Shown here piece after piece: positions 2,035 to 7,956 of a stretch of 64,000 nucleotides of DNA (position 1 is the first letter of the stretch; the number at the start of each line of letters is the position of its first letter). Under the pieces are notes generated by a model. It was not told the DNA's origin. It was given only the letters and a program-made list of their open reading frames with translations, and searched no databases. Made by a program: the position numbers and the translations under genes. Source of the DNA: Brachyspira suanatina (GTDB lineage: Bacteria > Spirochaetota > Brachyspiria > Brachyspirales > Brachyspiraceae); the NCBI RefSeq assembly GCF_001049755.1, contig NZ_CVLB01000001.1, forward strand, positions 806,001 to 870,000, in the 5' to 3' direction.

Positions 2035-5000
2035 TTAATCTCCAAAAACACTTTTTACTATGCTATAAATTGAAGAAGCAAATCTCTTATTAACTTTTAA
2101 AGGATTAATCAAAGTTTCAATGCCGTCAGTAATTTCACAGAACTCAATATCACCAAAATTAATATCTTCATTAGCATCCATTCCAAAGTACATATAGTCG
2201 AATGAGAGATGAACTGCTATGTTGAGATAAGTATCTTTTAATATGTACTCGCAGAAAGTTCCTCCGTCCATAGCTTCGCCTCTAGCCATATCGTACTTAG
2301 TAGCTAATGACATTAATACACCAGCCTTTATTGTTTTAGAATCAAGAGAATGAATCTTATCTTCTTTTATGTCTTCTTCTTTAATCTCTTCATATTTGAA
2401 ATTAAGCTGTTCTATAGGCTGTGATATCTCATAATCTGATAATTGAGTTTTCCATTTCTCTATAGTGTCAGCATCTAATTCTGAAGGGTGAACTAAAGTT
2501 ATTAAACTGTTCTCAGGTAAAGTGTACTCTTCTTCATCAACTGTATTGAAAGTACCGTCTTCCATGTATCTGAAACTCTGTATTAAATTGTTGTTCTCAT
2601 CATAAGCACCCCAAATAAGCTTCAAAGCAAATATGTTCATTATTGGGTTCTCAACAAATACTGTTTTGAAATTATTGTAAGTCCATTTTCTGCCATTTAA
2701 TAAAACTTTTTGAAGTCTTATTTTCTGATTCTGTATCAAAGTTTTTATTTCTTTCTTGAGTGTAGTACATTCTTTCTTAGCACTGTCTGCTTCTGCTTTG
2801 TCGTCTTTGCTGTTTGGTGCAGGAAGTGATTTTATTACTTTTTGTTTTTCATTATCTGTTATAGTGAGTTCAAGATTATTGTCTATTGATAATGTGAATG
2901 TTCTTCTTGCTTCTCCTCCGTAATTTAGAACTCTTTCACCTTTTTGACTAAATCCAAAATTAGGTATTATTCTGTCTGAAAGTTCATCAGCTGTCATATC
3001 AAGCATATAAGCAGCATTCTCCATAGTTTCTATTGCCACTTCTTTTATTTTTGCTGTAGGTGATTTTCTTGTTAGACCGTCTACTAATATTAATGCATAG
3101 TTCTTTCCGTTTAATGCCATACATTTTACAATAAATGCTGCCATAACAGTACGTGAACCTTTAGCAAATTCTTTTATAAGAGGATAAACTTTATCTATTT
3201 TCAAATCATCAGAATATATTAAATAAGGTATTAAAATATTCTTTTTTGTTGCTTCATAATTAGAATCTTTCCAATGGATATATAACATTTCCAAAGCATT
3301 AGTAAATGAAGTAGTATCAAGCATTTCAGCAAGCATATCGCAGTCTTTTAATCTTGCAGGCTCTACTAAATTCATATATTCCATAATAATATATTTAAAT
3401 ATTCTCTCATCAGCCAATGTTCCATTATTGTATAAAACTTTTGTCAAATGAACATCATCTAGGAACTTTATATTTTTTTCATAGTTTGTATTGTAGTAAG
3501 TGTCAATAAACTCCAAAGCCTCGTCGATACTTTTGAAATAGTCGCCGTATTTTTTTAAGTTCCAATTCTTAATAATATTTTTTAATGCTCCTTTAAGTTC
3601 TGATGATCTTGCTTTCTCTGACATCTTTTCGACATAAGGTCTTGTAATAGCTTCATTATCAGAAATAACTTTAATACAATGCCTTTTTACTTCGGCTCTC
3701 TTTGTATTTTCAAGAATCGTATAAACTAAATGATAATCATTATAATGACATTTATTATACAATGTTCTTAATATATCTAAGGCTGTATTTTTATTGCTTG
3801 CTATATTATCTTTTATAAACTTATCATCATTTAATATATTTACCACTTCATCAAAATAGCTTTTTAATAATTCATCTTTTACGCTATTTATAATAACATT
3901 ATTATTTTCATCTACGCATCTAAGTTCTTTATATAATGTAGGAAGAGATTTTCCTCCATAGTCATAATAATAATTTGAAAGATCTCCTGCATAATCAAAA
4001 TAGTATGATAATAAAATTTCTTTTAATGTAATATTCAATTCTTTATTATTTAATAAACTATCAATAACTTCTTTTAAAGTTTTACTTCCTATAGATGCCT
4101 GCACTTCTATATATTTTCTTATTCCAAGCTGAATTGGTAAATATTTAAAAATATCAAGAGCAAACTTTTTATAGTTTTTTATTTCAGGGATATCATAATT
4201 AAATAAAGAGAATAAATAATAAAGTTCTGTACTAAGACAATATTCAGGGAGAGTATTTCCCCATCTGTATGTGCTGTATAGATTGTATGTATTTTTTTTG
4301 TCTGTATAATAATCTATAAGCGTATCAAATAGTTTATTTTTATCTTTATCAAATATTTCTTCTATTTTTTCTGTAGTAGTAAAAGTAGGTCTTGGATTAT
4401 ATCTATTAGAGTTATCTTTTGTAAATTTATTAACTATAGTTTCTAATACAGTTATAGATTTTTTTAAATTATTTGTATCTAAATTATTATCATTATGTTC
4501 TAGTAAAACACCGCTAAGAACTATAAATATTCTTTTATTTCTATCATTATTTCTATTATTATTATACCTATCACTATTTAAACTATTTTCTACAAAATTA
4601 TAAATTTTATAAAAATCTTCTTTATGATTCAAATATAAATCTCTTGCACCATAAATGAAGGCATAATGAAAATAGTCCTCAAAATGCTGTGCTATAAATG
4701 CAAAATCATTTGGATAATTTATTGCATTAAAGAATTTCTCTCTAGCTTTATAAGGATTGTTATAATCTAATGATCTTAAATGGTATCCAAGTATAATATT
4801 AATGTCAATGATATATTCTTCATTTTTATTAAGCACTTCTATAAATTTATTTTTTATAGCCTCATTTTTATCTAAGATAGCAGCAATTACATTTAAAGTG
4901 TCATAAAGATTAGGAAGAACATCGAATGATTTTATAGCTGCATTTATATATTTCTCATCACATTCTTTATTATTTTTTATAACAGAACATATTGCAATCA

Positions 5001-5502
5001 ATGGTATTACAGCATCTCTATCCATTTTTTTTAATATTTTTTTATTATCATTGTTATTAATAATATCAATATATTTATCTGTGTATTCTTGAAACTCTTT
5101 ACTGAAGTATTTATTAAAATCTTCAAAAACTGTATATATTAAAGTTTCACCATTTAAAGTTCTTGCCTGTTCTTTATATCTTTTCTCATATCCATAAACA
5201 AGATATCTGAGTGACTTTTCAAAATCTCTATTGACTATATAATCAAAAATAACATATCTAGTTCCGCCTTCTCCTTCCTTATCTTTTCCATAAATAAGTA
5301 TCTTCATGAAATGTTCATATCTTTTTTTTAATTTTTCATCTTCTATAGAAAAGTAATCTTTCAAAAATTCCTCTTTATAATGGAAATAATCATAAGAATT
5401 CCTTCTTATTTTACTGAAATCATTTGTAGCTTCACATTTTGCCATATCATCTTCTATAGCAGAGCCTTGATAATATATTGCAAGTTTTTCTTCTAAGTTC
5501 AT
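2035..5502 (-). CDS. DUF4132 domain-containing protein (giant cytosolic protein)
   Basis: The 1,155-residue product is a long, mostly alpha-helical protein without signal peptide or membrane helices. The C-terminal third carries the DUF4132 signature: a basic helix with LLNGRKW, then a segment ending FALKLIWGAYD, then strands with YTLP and LVHPSEL. DUF4132 proteins, some described as MolR-like, have no established biochemical function. The start is set at the second Met (MNLEEKL), because AGAGGTG lies six bases before it and overlaps the codons after the upstream ATG at 5518-5520. The gene is alone between two blocks of modular repeats, which is suggestive of an accessory gene. Base composition is like that of its neighbours. 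Confidence 0.8.
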   Translation of the reverse strand: MNLEEKLAIYYQGSAIEDDMAKCEATNDFSKIRRNSYDYFHYKEEFLKDYFSIEDEKLKKRYEHFMKILIYGKDKEGEGGTRYVIFDYIVNRDFEKSLRYLVYGYEKRYKEQARTLNGETLIYTVFEDFNKYFSKEFQEYTDKYIDIINNNDNKKILKKMDRDAVIPLIAICSVIKNNKECDEKYINAAIKSFDVLPNLYDTLNVIAAILDKNEAIKNKFIEVLNKNEEYIIDINIILGYHLRSLDYNNPYKAREKFFNAINYPNDFAFIAQHFEDYFHYAFIYGARDLYLNHKEDFYKIYNFVENSLNSDRYNNNRNNDRNKRIFIVLSGVLLEHNDNNLDTNNLKKSITVLETIVNKFTKDNSNRYNPRPTFTTTEKIEEIFDKDKNKLFDTLIDYYTDKKNTYNLYSTYRWGNTLPEYCLSTELYYLFSLFNYDIPEIKNYKKFALDIFKYLPIQLGIRKYIEVQASIGSKTLKEVIDSLLNNKELNITLKEILLSYYFDYAGDLSNYYYDYGGKSLPTLYKELRCVDENNNVIINSVKDELLKSYFDEVVNILNDDKFIKDNIASNKNTALDILRTLYNKCHYNDYHLVYTILENTKRAEVKRHCIKVISDNEAITRPYVEKMSEKARSSELKGALKNIIKNWNLKKYGDYFKSIDEALEFIDTYYNTNYEKNIKFLDDVHLTKVLYNNGTLADERIFKYIIMEYMNLVEPARLKDCDMLAEMLDTTSFTNALEMLYIHWKDSNYEATKKNILIPYLIYSDDLKIDKVYPLIKEFAKGSRTVMAAFIVKCMALNGKNYALILVDGLTRKSPTAKIKEVAIETMENAAYMLDMTADELSDRIIPNFGFSQKGERVLNYGGEARRTFTLSIDNNLELTITDNEKQKVIKSLPAPNSKDDKAEADSAKKECTTLKKEIKTLIQNQKIRLQKVLLNGRKWTYNNFKTVFVENPIMNIFALKLIWGAYDENNNLIQSFRYMEDGTFNTVDEEEYTLPENSLITLVHPSELDADTIEKWKTQLSDYEISQPIEQLNFKYEEIKEEDIKEDKIHSLDSKTIKAGVLMSLATKYDMARGEAMDGGTFCEYILKDTYLNIAVHLSFDYMYFGMDANEDINFGDIEFCEITDGIETLINPLKVNKRFASSIYSIVKSVFGD

Positions 5503-5602
5503 AAATTCACCTCTTATCATTTTTTAATCTATATTAATGTATAGTATATATATTTTTTTATTTATTGTCAACTTCTTTAAGTTCTATTTACCTAACATAA
5601 CC

Positions 5603-6030
5603 CCCATCGCACGCAGTATAAATCATAAATATAATTATATTATTATACAATTTATATCATAAATTGATAATGCATTTACTGTGCGTTAAATAGATTTTAA
5701 ATTTAAAAATAACTTGGGCGGGTGCCTTAATTTCTAATAAAGTATCAAAACAATTTAAATTATAATTACAGAACAAAGCAACAAAGAATTAAGGGCGGGG
5801 AATGTAAATAATACTTTAAAGTTTAATTACATCTGCCCACCCTCTTGCTTTATTATTACATTTTACATTTTAGACTTTACTTCTTTACTGCCTCAATTAA
5901 AAAAGCATGCCCACCCAAAATGTTTTTAAAGTTATTAGTTTATTTACCGCACGAAAAAATAAAACAAGAAATAAAGAATAATAAAAAATCAAATATTAAT
6001 TATAAAATAGAATTGACTAACCGTGCGTAA
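5603..6030. repeat. Modular palindromic intergenic repeat, locus 2
   Basis: The order is CGCACG (5608), GTGCGTT (5681), CTTGGGCGGG (5713), GGGCGGGG (5793) paired with CCCACCC (5836), CCCACCC (5910), ACCGCACG (5946) and CCGTGCGT (6021). It is therefore two ~75-bp ACCGCACG modules placed symmetrically about a ~50-bp G-box hairpin. The spacings of about 70, 28 and 70 bases match locus 1. It fills the gap upstream of the DUF4132 gene. A 61-codon frame crossing it looks accidental. Confidence 0.8.
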
Positions 6031-6055
6031 AAAAATACAAAAAATAAAATTATAA

Positions 6056-6086
6056 TAAAAAAACCTATGCAATAAATGCATAGGCT
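6056..6086 (-). terminator. Terminator of the first small-protein unit
   Basis: CCTATGCA and TGCATAGG (6064-6071 and 6077-6084) form an 8-bp stem, followed on the minus strand by a T run. It sits about 20 bases after the stop codon of the 36-residue gene. An almost identical hairpin follows the second small gene. Confidence 0.85.
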
Positions 6087-6104
6087 TATGGGAAAAAATA
6101 AAGC

Positions 6105-6215
6105 TTATTCTTCTACATTTTCTATTATGTCGTTATATTCGTTGATTAATAAATTATATTCTTCATCATCTAATAAAATACAATCATTATTCAAACTGTT
6201 TAATAATCTGCTCAT
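6105..6215 (-). CDS. Small acidic protein of 36 residues (paralogue 1), unknown function
   Basis: The start codon at 6213-6215 is preceded by AAGGAG at ideal spacing, and the frame ends at 6105. The protein has about eleven acidic residues, one Cys, and a central LLDDEEYNLLINEY segment that looks amphipathic. There is no signal peptide or membrane helix, so it does not look like a classic hydrophobic type I toxin. The second small gene (6441-6554) encodes a clear relative, sharing L-N-x-L-N, a Cys at position 14, DDE/NDE-x-Y-x-LLI-x-EY and a final EE. Own promoter, leader hairpin and terminator make it a self-contained unit. I do not recognise the family. Conservation between the pair is the main argument that it is translated. 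Confidence 0.75.
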   Translation of the reverse strand: MSRLLNSLNNDCILLDDEEYNLLINEYNDIIENVEE

Positions 6216-6259
6216 GTAAATCTCCTTCTTTCATTCATAAATAAACCTTAATTTTTTAT

Positions 6260-6336
6260 GTGATATATTAAGTTTATATTGTAGTTCATTATCACGATTT
6301 GTACTAATAATATAAGAAATTAATATATAAAGGCAA
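6260..6336 (-). promoter_or_regulatory. Promoter and leader hairpin of small gene 1
   Basis: On the minus strand TTGCCT (6331-6336) and TATATT (6309-6314) are 16 bases apart. The predicted leader then contains GTGATA (6290-6295) and TATCAC (6260-6265), which can pair. The second small gene has the same layout, with the same GTGAT/ATCAC arms. Confidence 0.6.
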
Positions 6337-6390
6337 GAAGTTTTTTATATTGGTTTTAATAAATAATTTTATATAGATAAACAAGAATAA

Positions 6391-6420
6391 TAAAAAAGCC
6401 TATGCATTTATCGCATAGGC
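6391..6420 (-). terminator. Terminator of the second small-protein unit
   Basis: GCCTATGC (6398-6405) and GCATAGGC (6413-6420) form a perfect 8-bp stem followed by a minus-strand T run. It separates the two small units, so they are transcribed independently. Confidence 0.88.
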
Positions 6421-6440
6421 TTAAGGAGAAACAAATAATA

Positions 6441-6554
6441 TCATTCTTCTATATATTTCCTCATTATTTCATAATATTCGCTTATTAATAGCCTATAATC
6501 TTCATCATTTAAAAAGTTACATTCTTTATTTAATATGTTGAATAATTTAGTCAT
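6441..6554 (-). CDS. Small acidic protein of 37 residues (paralogue 2), unknown function
   Basis: The ATG at 6552-6554 follows a full AAAGGAGGT Shine-Dalgarno site, one of the strongest in the window. The product resembles the 36-residue neighbour in length, in the Cys at position 14 and in the NDEDYRLLISEYYEI core, but it has more basic residues near the C-terminus. No signal peptide, membrane helix or known motif is seen. It has its own promoter and leader hairpin upstream and its own terminator downstream. Partial protein similarity combined with conserved layout points to an older tandem duplication under selection. The function is unknown, and peptide, regulator or RNA-plus-peptide roles all remain possible. 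Confidence 0.77.
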   Translation of the reverse strand: MTKLFNILNKECNFLNDEDYRLLISEYYEIMRKYIEE

Positions 6555-6595
6555 AATAGACCTCCTTTTTCATCATAAATAAATTTAAATTTTTA

Positions 6596-6674
6596 TGTGA
6601 TGAACAAGTTGTATCTTGTAATTAATTATCACAAGCATCTATTAATAATATAATAAATTGTGTAATAAATTCAA
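6596..6674 (-). promoter_or_regulatory. Promoter and nested leader hairpin of small gene 2
   Basis: TTGAAT (6669-6674) and TATATT (6647-6652) are 16 bases apart on the minus strand. The leader contains outer arms TGTGAT/ATCACA (6628-6633 with 6596-6601) and inner arms ACAAG/CTTGT (6615-6619 with 6604-6608), giving a nested stem-loop about 40 bases before the Shine-Dalgarno site. Apart from this and the terminator at 6816-6849, the 319-base gap 6555-6873 shows only AT-rich sequence. Confidence 0.6.
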
Positions 6675-6873: not shown

Positions 6874-7956
6874 TTAGTATCTCCAAATTCCCCAAATATC
6901 TAATCCGCCGCCGAATGCATTATTTATTTCAAAGTTGGCACTTTTTCTCATTATTCCCTGACCTTCGGCATATCCCGTCAAACCAAATGTTAGATTTTCT
7001 ATTAAAGTAACTTGAAGTTCTCCTTCCACACCATAATGCAAATTGTATTCTCCATCTACTTTATATAACTGACCTTCAAACATAAGTCTAGGCATTATGT
7101 ATGTATATATTGCCCCTAATTTTGCCTCAAATTTAGCTGGTAATAATATATAGAAATACATACTGTCAGTAGATCTTCCGCCTTCATCATCATATAAATA
7201 ATTAATCAAAGCATCTTCTGCATATCCGGCATCTATAGTAGCAAATCTTGACCCGATACCATAATAGAAAGCTAATTTTATAGGAAGACTTATTTGTACC
7301 GGATAATTATCAAATCTTGTAAGCATTACACTTCCATATAAAGAACCTCCTATTACCATAGGTGCTATAGAAGTTCCGCCAACATCATTTATAACAGTTG
7401 AAAGCTGTATTCCATAATGAAGCGACATAGTAAATTCATCTAATAATCCGCCTCTAAACATAAAAGAAAATTTAGGTGTGGTACTAAATGCTAATTTTCC
7501 GCCATAATGATTCTGATCAGCAATATAAAATGAAAAAGGTAAAGTAAATCTATATTTCTCCATAGCTAGACCAAAAGAAAATGAATGGCTATGAGCAATA
7601 GGCATATTTTTTTCACTAAGATCATTATATAAATTAAATTGATATCCAAATCCGAATATACCATAGCTTAGTCCTACAAATCCTTTAGGTAAAAATGCTA
7701 ACTTTCTTTCTCCAGCAGCATTTGTTTTATTATCTACTATATGTGATAAATCTAATATTGATACACCCAATTTTAAAGGCGTATTATGATTCATAAGCGG
7801 AGCAAAATCGTATATTGTACTTACTCTGTCAGATCCAAATCTTGTTGAAGTTACTCCTTCTATTAAATTATGCATATTATCTTTATCTAAGATATCATCT
7901 ATAGCAAAAGCAAAAGAATTTAATATTAAGAGCATCAGGAATATTATTTTTTTCAT
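6874..7956 (-). CDS. Predicted outer-membrane beta-barrel protein
   Basis: The 360-residue protein starts with a typical signal peptide (MKKIIFLMLLILNSFAFA, likely cleaved before IDD). The rest alternates short amphipathic strands rich in Tyr, Phe and Gly (for example FGFGYQFNLYND and FSFGLAMEKYRFTLPFSFYI) and ends in an aromatic residue (IWGIWRY), as expected for an outer-membrane barrel. No conserved family motif is recognised. It probably sits in the spirochaete outer membrane, with a porin or structural role possible. It is a single-gene unit with a clear terminator and a divergent metallopeptidase gene upstream. Confidence 0.65.
   Translation of the reverse strand: MKKIIFLMLLILNSFAFAIDDILDKDNMHNLIEGVTSTRFGSDRVSTIYDFAPLMNHNTPLKLGVSILDLSHIVDNKTNAAGERKLAFLPKGFVGLSYGIFGFGYQFNLYNDLSEKNMPIAHSHSFSFGLAMEKYRFTLPFSFYIADQNHYGGKLAFSTTPKFSFMFRGGLLDEFTMSLHYGIQLSTVINDVGGTSIAPMVIGGSLYGSVMLTRFDNYPVQISLPIKLAFYYGIGSRFATIDAGYAEDALINYLYDDEGGRSTDSMYFYILLPAKFEAKLGAIYTYIMPRLMFEGQLYKVDGEYNLHYGVEGELQVTLIENLTFGLTGYAEGQGIMRKSANFEINNAFGGGLDIWGIWRY

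Follow-up and report, generated by a model that had tools for sequence, protein, structure and literature searches.

The anti-repressors SinI and SlrA of Bacillus, which carry the SIN domain, are very small acidic helical proteins whose sequences resemble L-D-x-E-(W/Y)-x-x-L-(M/I)-x-E. The Spo0E-like aspartyl phosphatases fold as a short helical hairpin in which the pattern L-I-x-x-Y occurs. In addition, lineage-specific small proteins have been detected by ribosome profiling (e.g., PMC5345727 and PMC9426450).

The locus described here lies in a window of 64,000 nucleotides from Brachyspira suanatina (contig NZ_CVLB01000001.1, positions 806,001 to 870,000), in which a first-pass annotation had pointed to two tandem, self-contained units for related small proteins. 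The analysis adds a selected, multi-copy small-protein family, absent from the libraries, to the repertoire of Brachyspira, gut spirochaetes among which are pathogens of pigs and humans, and such families are raw material for the discovery of new small regulators.

Organization of the Locus

The two units are consecutive on the minus strand, flanked by a porin-like outer-membrane protein gene (6874-7956, named by inference from its sequence; a Pfam search of the product gave no match) and a DUF4132 gene (2035-5520). Unit 2 is transcribed first (promoter from 6674, ORF 6554-6441, terminator 6422-6396) and is followed by unit 1 (promoter from 6336, ORF 6215-6105, terminator 6087-6061). Where the readable sequence of an orthologous Brachyspira locus was long enough, it showed the same neighbours, in the order porin, unit 2, unit 1, and DUF4132 gene. 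Each unit is a monocistronic gene.

Each unit had been credited with its own promoter with a 16-base spacer, and both promoters were located, at 81-94% identity in three orthologous loci. The unit 2 promoter, TTGAAT-16-TATATT (6644-6674, minus strand; boxes 6674-6647), is 81-90% identical in these loci, compared with 57-76% in the spacer upstream, while that of unit 1, TTGCCT-16-TATATT (6306-6336, minus strand; boxes 6336-6309), is 90-94% identical. A promoter scan of the DNA was not significant (32 sites found versus 37 expected by chance). The strong Shine-Dalgarno sites were also confirmed, with AAGGAG read in the sequence of unit 1 at 6222-6227 and present in unit 2 at 6562-6567, within an AAGGAGG-containing region (6555-6567) that is 92-100% identical in the three orthologous loci. 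The terminators proposed to share a near-identical stem are intrinsic terminators of 11 pairs at 6396-6422 (unit 2; 81-89% identical in orthologues) and 6061-6087 (unit 1; found by terminator scan and stem search), all of these elements being on the minus strand. The scan detected two terminators versus 0.7 expected, and the stem was absent from the rest of the window.

When the intergenic region was aligned between the window and three other genomes with orthologous loci, identity was 81-94% for promoters, 82-95% for leaders, and 86-99% for ORFs. Spacers ranged from 10 to 93% by genome, most being 44-88%, and promoters, leaders, and ORFs were mostly better kept. Across orthologous loci, each unit keeps its promoter, leader, Shine-Dalgarno site, and terminator, a block-like conservation that bears out the description of the units as self-contained.

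In most loci of the window type, a small ORF and then a terminator precede the DUF4132 gene, an arrangement expected if the ORFs were attenuator leader peptides controlling that gene. This explanation is very unlikely. Unit 1, which has its own promoter, comes after unit 2, the downstream genes vary by locus, the stretch of 450 bp separating unit 1 from the DUF4132 gene is largely absent in two of the three species compared, and neither a codon run nor anti-terminator pairing was seen by eye.

Two further observations concern the same side of the locus. The stretch at 5600-6050, which is 93% identical in one genome, carries inverted elements of the GGGCGGG and CCCGCCC type together with GTGCG/CGCAC motifs. 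Brachyspira also shows a strong expansion of DUF4132 (PF13569), with 17 matches in the genome of the window and up to 17 in others, whereas only 1 of 14 control genomes has any. A functional tie between the small proteins and DUF4132 was rejected because of these 17 matches and because the domain is also present in genomes without the small proteins.

Selection on the Encoded Proteins

The related acidic ORFs of 36 and 37 residues were found as described, on the minus strand. Unit 2 (6441-6554) encodes the 37-residue peptide MTKLFNILNKECNFLNDEDYRLLISEYYEIMRKYIEE, which has orthologues of 76-92% identity in eight further species, and unit 1 (6105-6215) encodes the 36-residue peptide MSRLLNSLNNDCILLDDEEYNLLINEYNDIIENVEE, whose orthologues in four genomes are 78-97% identical. 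The motif DE-x-Y-x-LLI-x-EY is exact in both peptides. The shared L-N-x-L-N holds for unit 1, but unit 2 reads F-N-x-L-N, and the Cys that had been placed at position 14 is residue 12 in both.

Selection on the peptide, suggested in the first-pass annotation, is evident from substitutions that are mostly synonymous and fall chiefly in the third position of codons. Pairwise dN/dS of unit 2 of the window against its orthologues is about 0.09-0.19, and the differences summed over all unit 2 pairs, which are not independent of one another, number 96 at the first codon position, 61 at the second, and 203 at the third. Single-pair tests of unit 2 against the Brachyspira hampsonii orthologue gave a synonymous excess at p = 3e-5 and a third-position bias at p = 0.007. 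Unit 1 has fewer differences, with a summed pN/pS of 0.30 and a dN/dS of 0.51 in one pair. Start codon and Shine-Dalgarno site are kept among orthologues. Both checks named in advance, homologues that keep the frame in related genomes and a codon-position bias of substitutions (most visible in the unit 2 counts above), came out in favour of purifying selection on the protein, and the two ORFs are almost certainly real, selected proteins.

The DNA is very A+T-rich and holds many small ORFs, and the pair could in principle be chance ORFs riding on conserved intergenic DNA. The selection tests already refute this, leaving it a negligible probability: the third-position bias, the retained start codon and Shine-Dalgarno site, and family profile E-values down to 1e-18 all argue against it.

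Distribution of the Family in Brachyspira

Iterated profile searches gathered 48 members around the first matches. With a profile built from a 28-row alignment and members accepted at E <= 2e-4, 52 members were found in 18 of 26 Brachyspira genomes; the gap below them is clean, the next match having an E-value of 0.02. No convincing member was detected in approximately 270 other genomes of the phylum, and a control with reversed ORFs gave no match better than E 0.03. Two matches outside Brachyspira, at E about 0.005, lie inside large ORFs and were taken as chance. The same was concluded for weak matches in a MoxR-type ATPase of about 530 residues (e.g., E 0.003 in one genome), which are C-terminal and confined to one orthologous group. 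The C-terminus of this ATPase has, at three loci, a short core-like stretch, SDEEFNLFIDMFNNHIENLE, whose likeness is probably due to chance.

The family was also said to be an unrecognised one, and it matches none of the libraries searched. No convincing match was obtained for any member in Pfam, NCBIfam, or PHROGs (PHROG matches were weak and scattered), and none in a PDB sequence search or in phage records. The family had no label before, and all members known to date come from Brachyspira.

The genome of the window has four members, namely unit 1, unit 2, one beside rpsT (C1:87234), and one beside a flavin reductase-rubredoxin gene (C3:151074). Across the genus, with neighbour gene names inferred from sequence, the following arrangements occur: rpsT, member(s), a PepSY-like protein, and a TPR protein; porin, member(s), and DUF4132; rpsT, member, and DUF4132; rubredoxin, member, and a methyltransferase; and the lysS locus. 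At seven loci, members of about 28-34 residues directly follow the flavin reductase-rubredoxin gene and are without the usual leader. One genome has three members in tandem by rpsT. The family has therefore probably expanded through tandem duplication, possibly starting beside rpsT, before reaching other loci.

Members that are multi-copy, tandem, fast-diverging outside the core, and patchily distributed (18 of 26 genomes) might be mobile or conflict-related small proteins from phage, such as antitoxins, immunity proteins, or anti-defence proteins. Such an origin is improbable, slightly more so than the RNA-centred reading considered below. Neither phage-record homologues nor a conserved partner ORF was found, viral contigs searched with two degenerate patterns gave no exact match, the PHROG matches are only weak and scattered, no toxin or mobile-element partner is obvious, and several positions are kept between species beside housekeeping genes such as rpsT.

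The Conserved Leader

Between promoter and ORF, each unit has a leader on the minus strand. That of unit 2 (6568-6643) contains GTGATAATTAATTACAAGAT (6632-6613) and CATCACATAAAA (6602-6591), and that of unit 1 (6229-6305), identified by leader alignment, leader model, and orthologous loci, contains GTGATAATGAACTACAATAT (6295-6276) and TATCACATAAAA (6265-6254). GTGATAA, TACAATAT, and TATCACAT are common to twenty leaders at nearly fixed spacing, and the leader alignment has 11 invariant columns. A sequence-only leader model (R1) gave clear matches (E <= 2e-5) only before family members, including unit 2; the next matches include a partial family leader (E 0.001) and the adhE promoter of one genome (E 0.007). 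A leader regulon extending beyond the family was rejected, as the model matches the family alone apart from this adhE promoter. Candidate Rfam families for the leader were only sub-threshold chance matches.

A leader hairpin with GTGAT/ATCAC arms had been proposed for both units. The two 5-mers are indeed present, at 6291-6295 and 6260-6264 in unit 1 and at 6628-6632 and 6597-6601 in unit 2, but their pairing as a conserved hairpin is not supported. In the best fold of unit 2, the partner of GTGAT is a nearer ATTAC instead of ATCAC, the unit 1 leader folds no better than shuffled sequences, and RNAalifold predicted no pairs in the family leaders. For a hairpin of either GTGAT/ATCAC or GTGAT/AYTAC, no pair changed on both sides, and counts of compensatory changes equalled those of shuffles. 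Covariation gives no support for a structured leader RNA or for the hairpin; the primary sequence of the leader is what evolution keeps.

A leader so strongly conserved and family-specific, in units that are short and self-terminated, would also suit a dual-function or regulatory RNA, in which a small RNA formed by leader and terminator does most of the work and the ORF plays a secondary part. We consider this unlikely. The amino-acid sequence is under selection, the distant members beside rubredoxin and lysS have the peptide core but no leader, and neither conserved RNA structure nor an Rfam family was found.

A weak lead, applicable to some members only, is a Rex-like operator. The operator of the redox repressor Rex is TTGTGAA-W4-TTCACAA (PMC2883068), and 23 of 26 Brachyspira genomes have a gene for Rex. 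Leaders of the rpsT type, one paralogue group, hold TTGATAATATTATCACAA, which resembles one operator half, and five Brachyspira adhE promoters, each from a different genome, hold TTATCACAA, a possible Rex half-operator, directly after the -10 box; it is all that adhE promoters have in common across species. No adhE match was found at E 1e-20 in the genome of the window. The leaders in the window differ from the Rex operator in that their spacing is 7 bases instead of 6 and TATCACAT is not framed by a palindrome, and the perfect operator TTGTGA-N6-TCACAA is absent from the 26 genomes, where only degenerate half-palindromes occur. A broader proposal, as unlikely as the regulatory RNA, is a genus-specific small-protein regulon in which dozens of paralogous acidic two-helix regulators have a 5' element in common. 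A Rex-related redox-type repressor might read this dedicated element, and each regulator would act on a different target protein while Brachyspira lives anaerobically.

Predicted Fold and Possible Function

The family core is (N/D)-D-E-(E/D)-Y-x-x-L-I-x-E-Y-(N)-(D/E)-I-I. Among 28 diverse aligned members, Y20, E26, and Y27 are invariant and L23 and I24 nearly so; both ORFs in the window carry (N/D)DE(E/D)YxxLIxEY with the three invariant residues. The pI is 4-5 in nearly all members and 8 in one, and no signal or transmembrane stretch is evident. AlphaFold2, given nine similar rows, modelled unit 1 with helices at 3-9 and 17-35 (mean pLDDT 83, pTM 0.49), and a Foldseek search with the predicted fold returned nothing meaningful (best E 8.4). 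In the 28-row alignment, hydrophobic residues at positions 20, 23, 24, 27, and 30-31 line one face of the long helix, and this one-sided conserved face suggests docking on a partner.

The explanation that we favour, at somewhat less than an even chance, is that these are genus-specific small acidic cytosolic two-helix proteins that dock on another protein, with a separate regulated mRNA for each of them. A short N-terminal helix would lead into a capped amphipathic one (D/N-D-E-E/D-Y..LI..EY..II), and the hydrophobic face of the latter (Y20, L23, I24, Y27, and I30) would contact the partner. The protein may serve as an adaptor or small regulator, in the manner of an anti-repressor, an inhibitor, or a chaperone. 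Copies may have been duplicated in tandem and then dispersed to other loci, divergence outside the core presumably tuning the choice of partner and the conserved 5' leader setting the timing of production of each copy. Counting against docking, no partner gene is common to all members, whose neighbours vary with the locus (rpsT, DUF4132, rubredoxin, or lysS). Thanks to the family-specific leader and the tandem arrays, both regulation and partner are open to direct testing.

Comparison with Known Small Proteins

Like SinI and SlrA, the Brachyspira proteins are very small, acidic, and helical, with a similar sequence pattern, a likeness that serves as a lead only. They lack the second C-terminal helix and belong to a different phylum, and none of the 28 members matched the Pfam SIN domain at E <= 1. 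They are also short and helical with a pattern like that of the Spo0E-like phosphatases; the SQELD motif is absent from all aligned members, and no Pfam match to that family was found. The small proteins of the ribosome-profiling reports (PMC5345727 and PMC9426450) resemble the Brachyspira family in being products of stand-alone small ORF genes without assigned function. Unlike them, the predicted Brachyspira proteins form a paralogous family with a leader dedicated to it.
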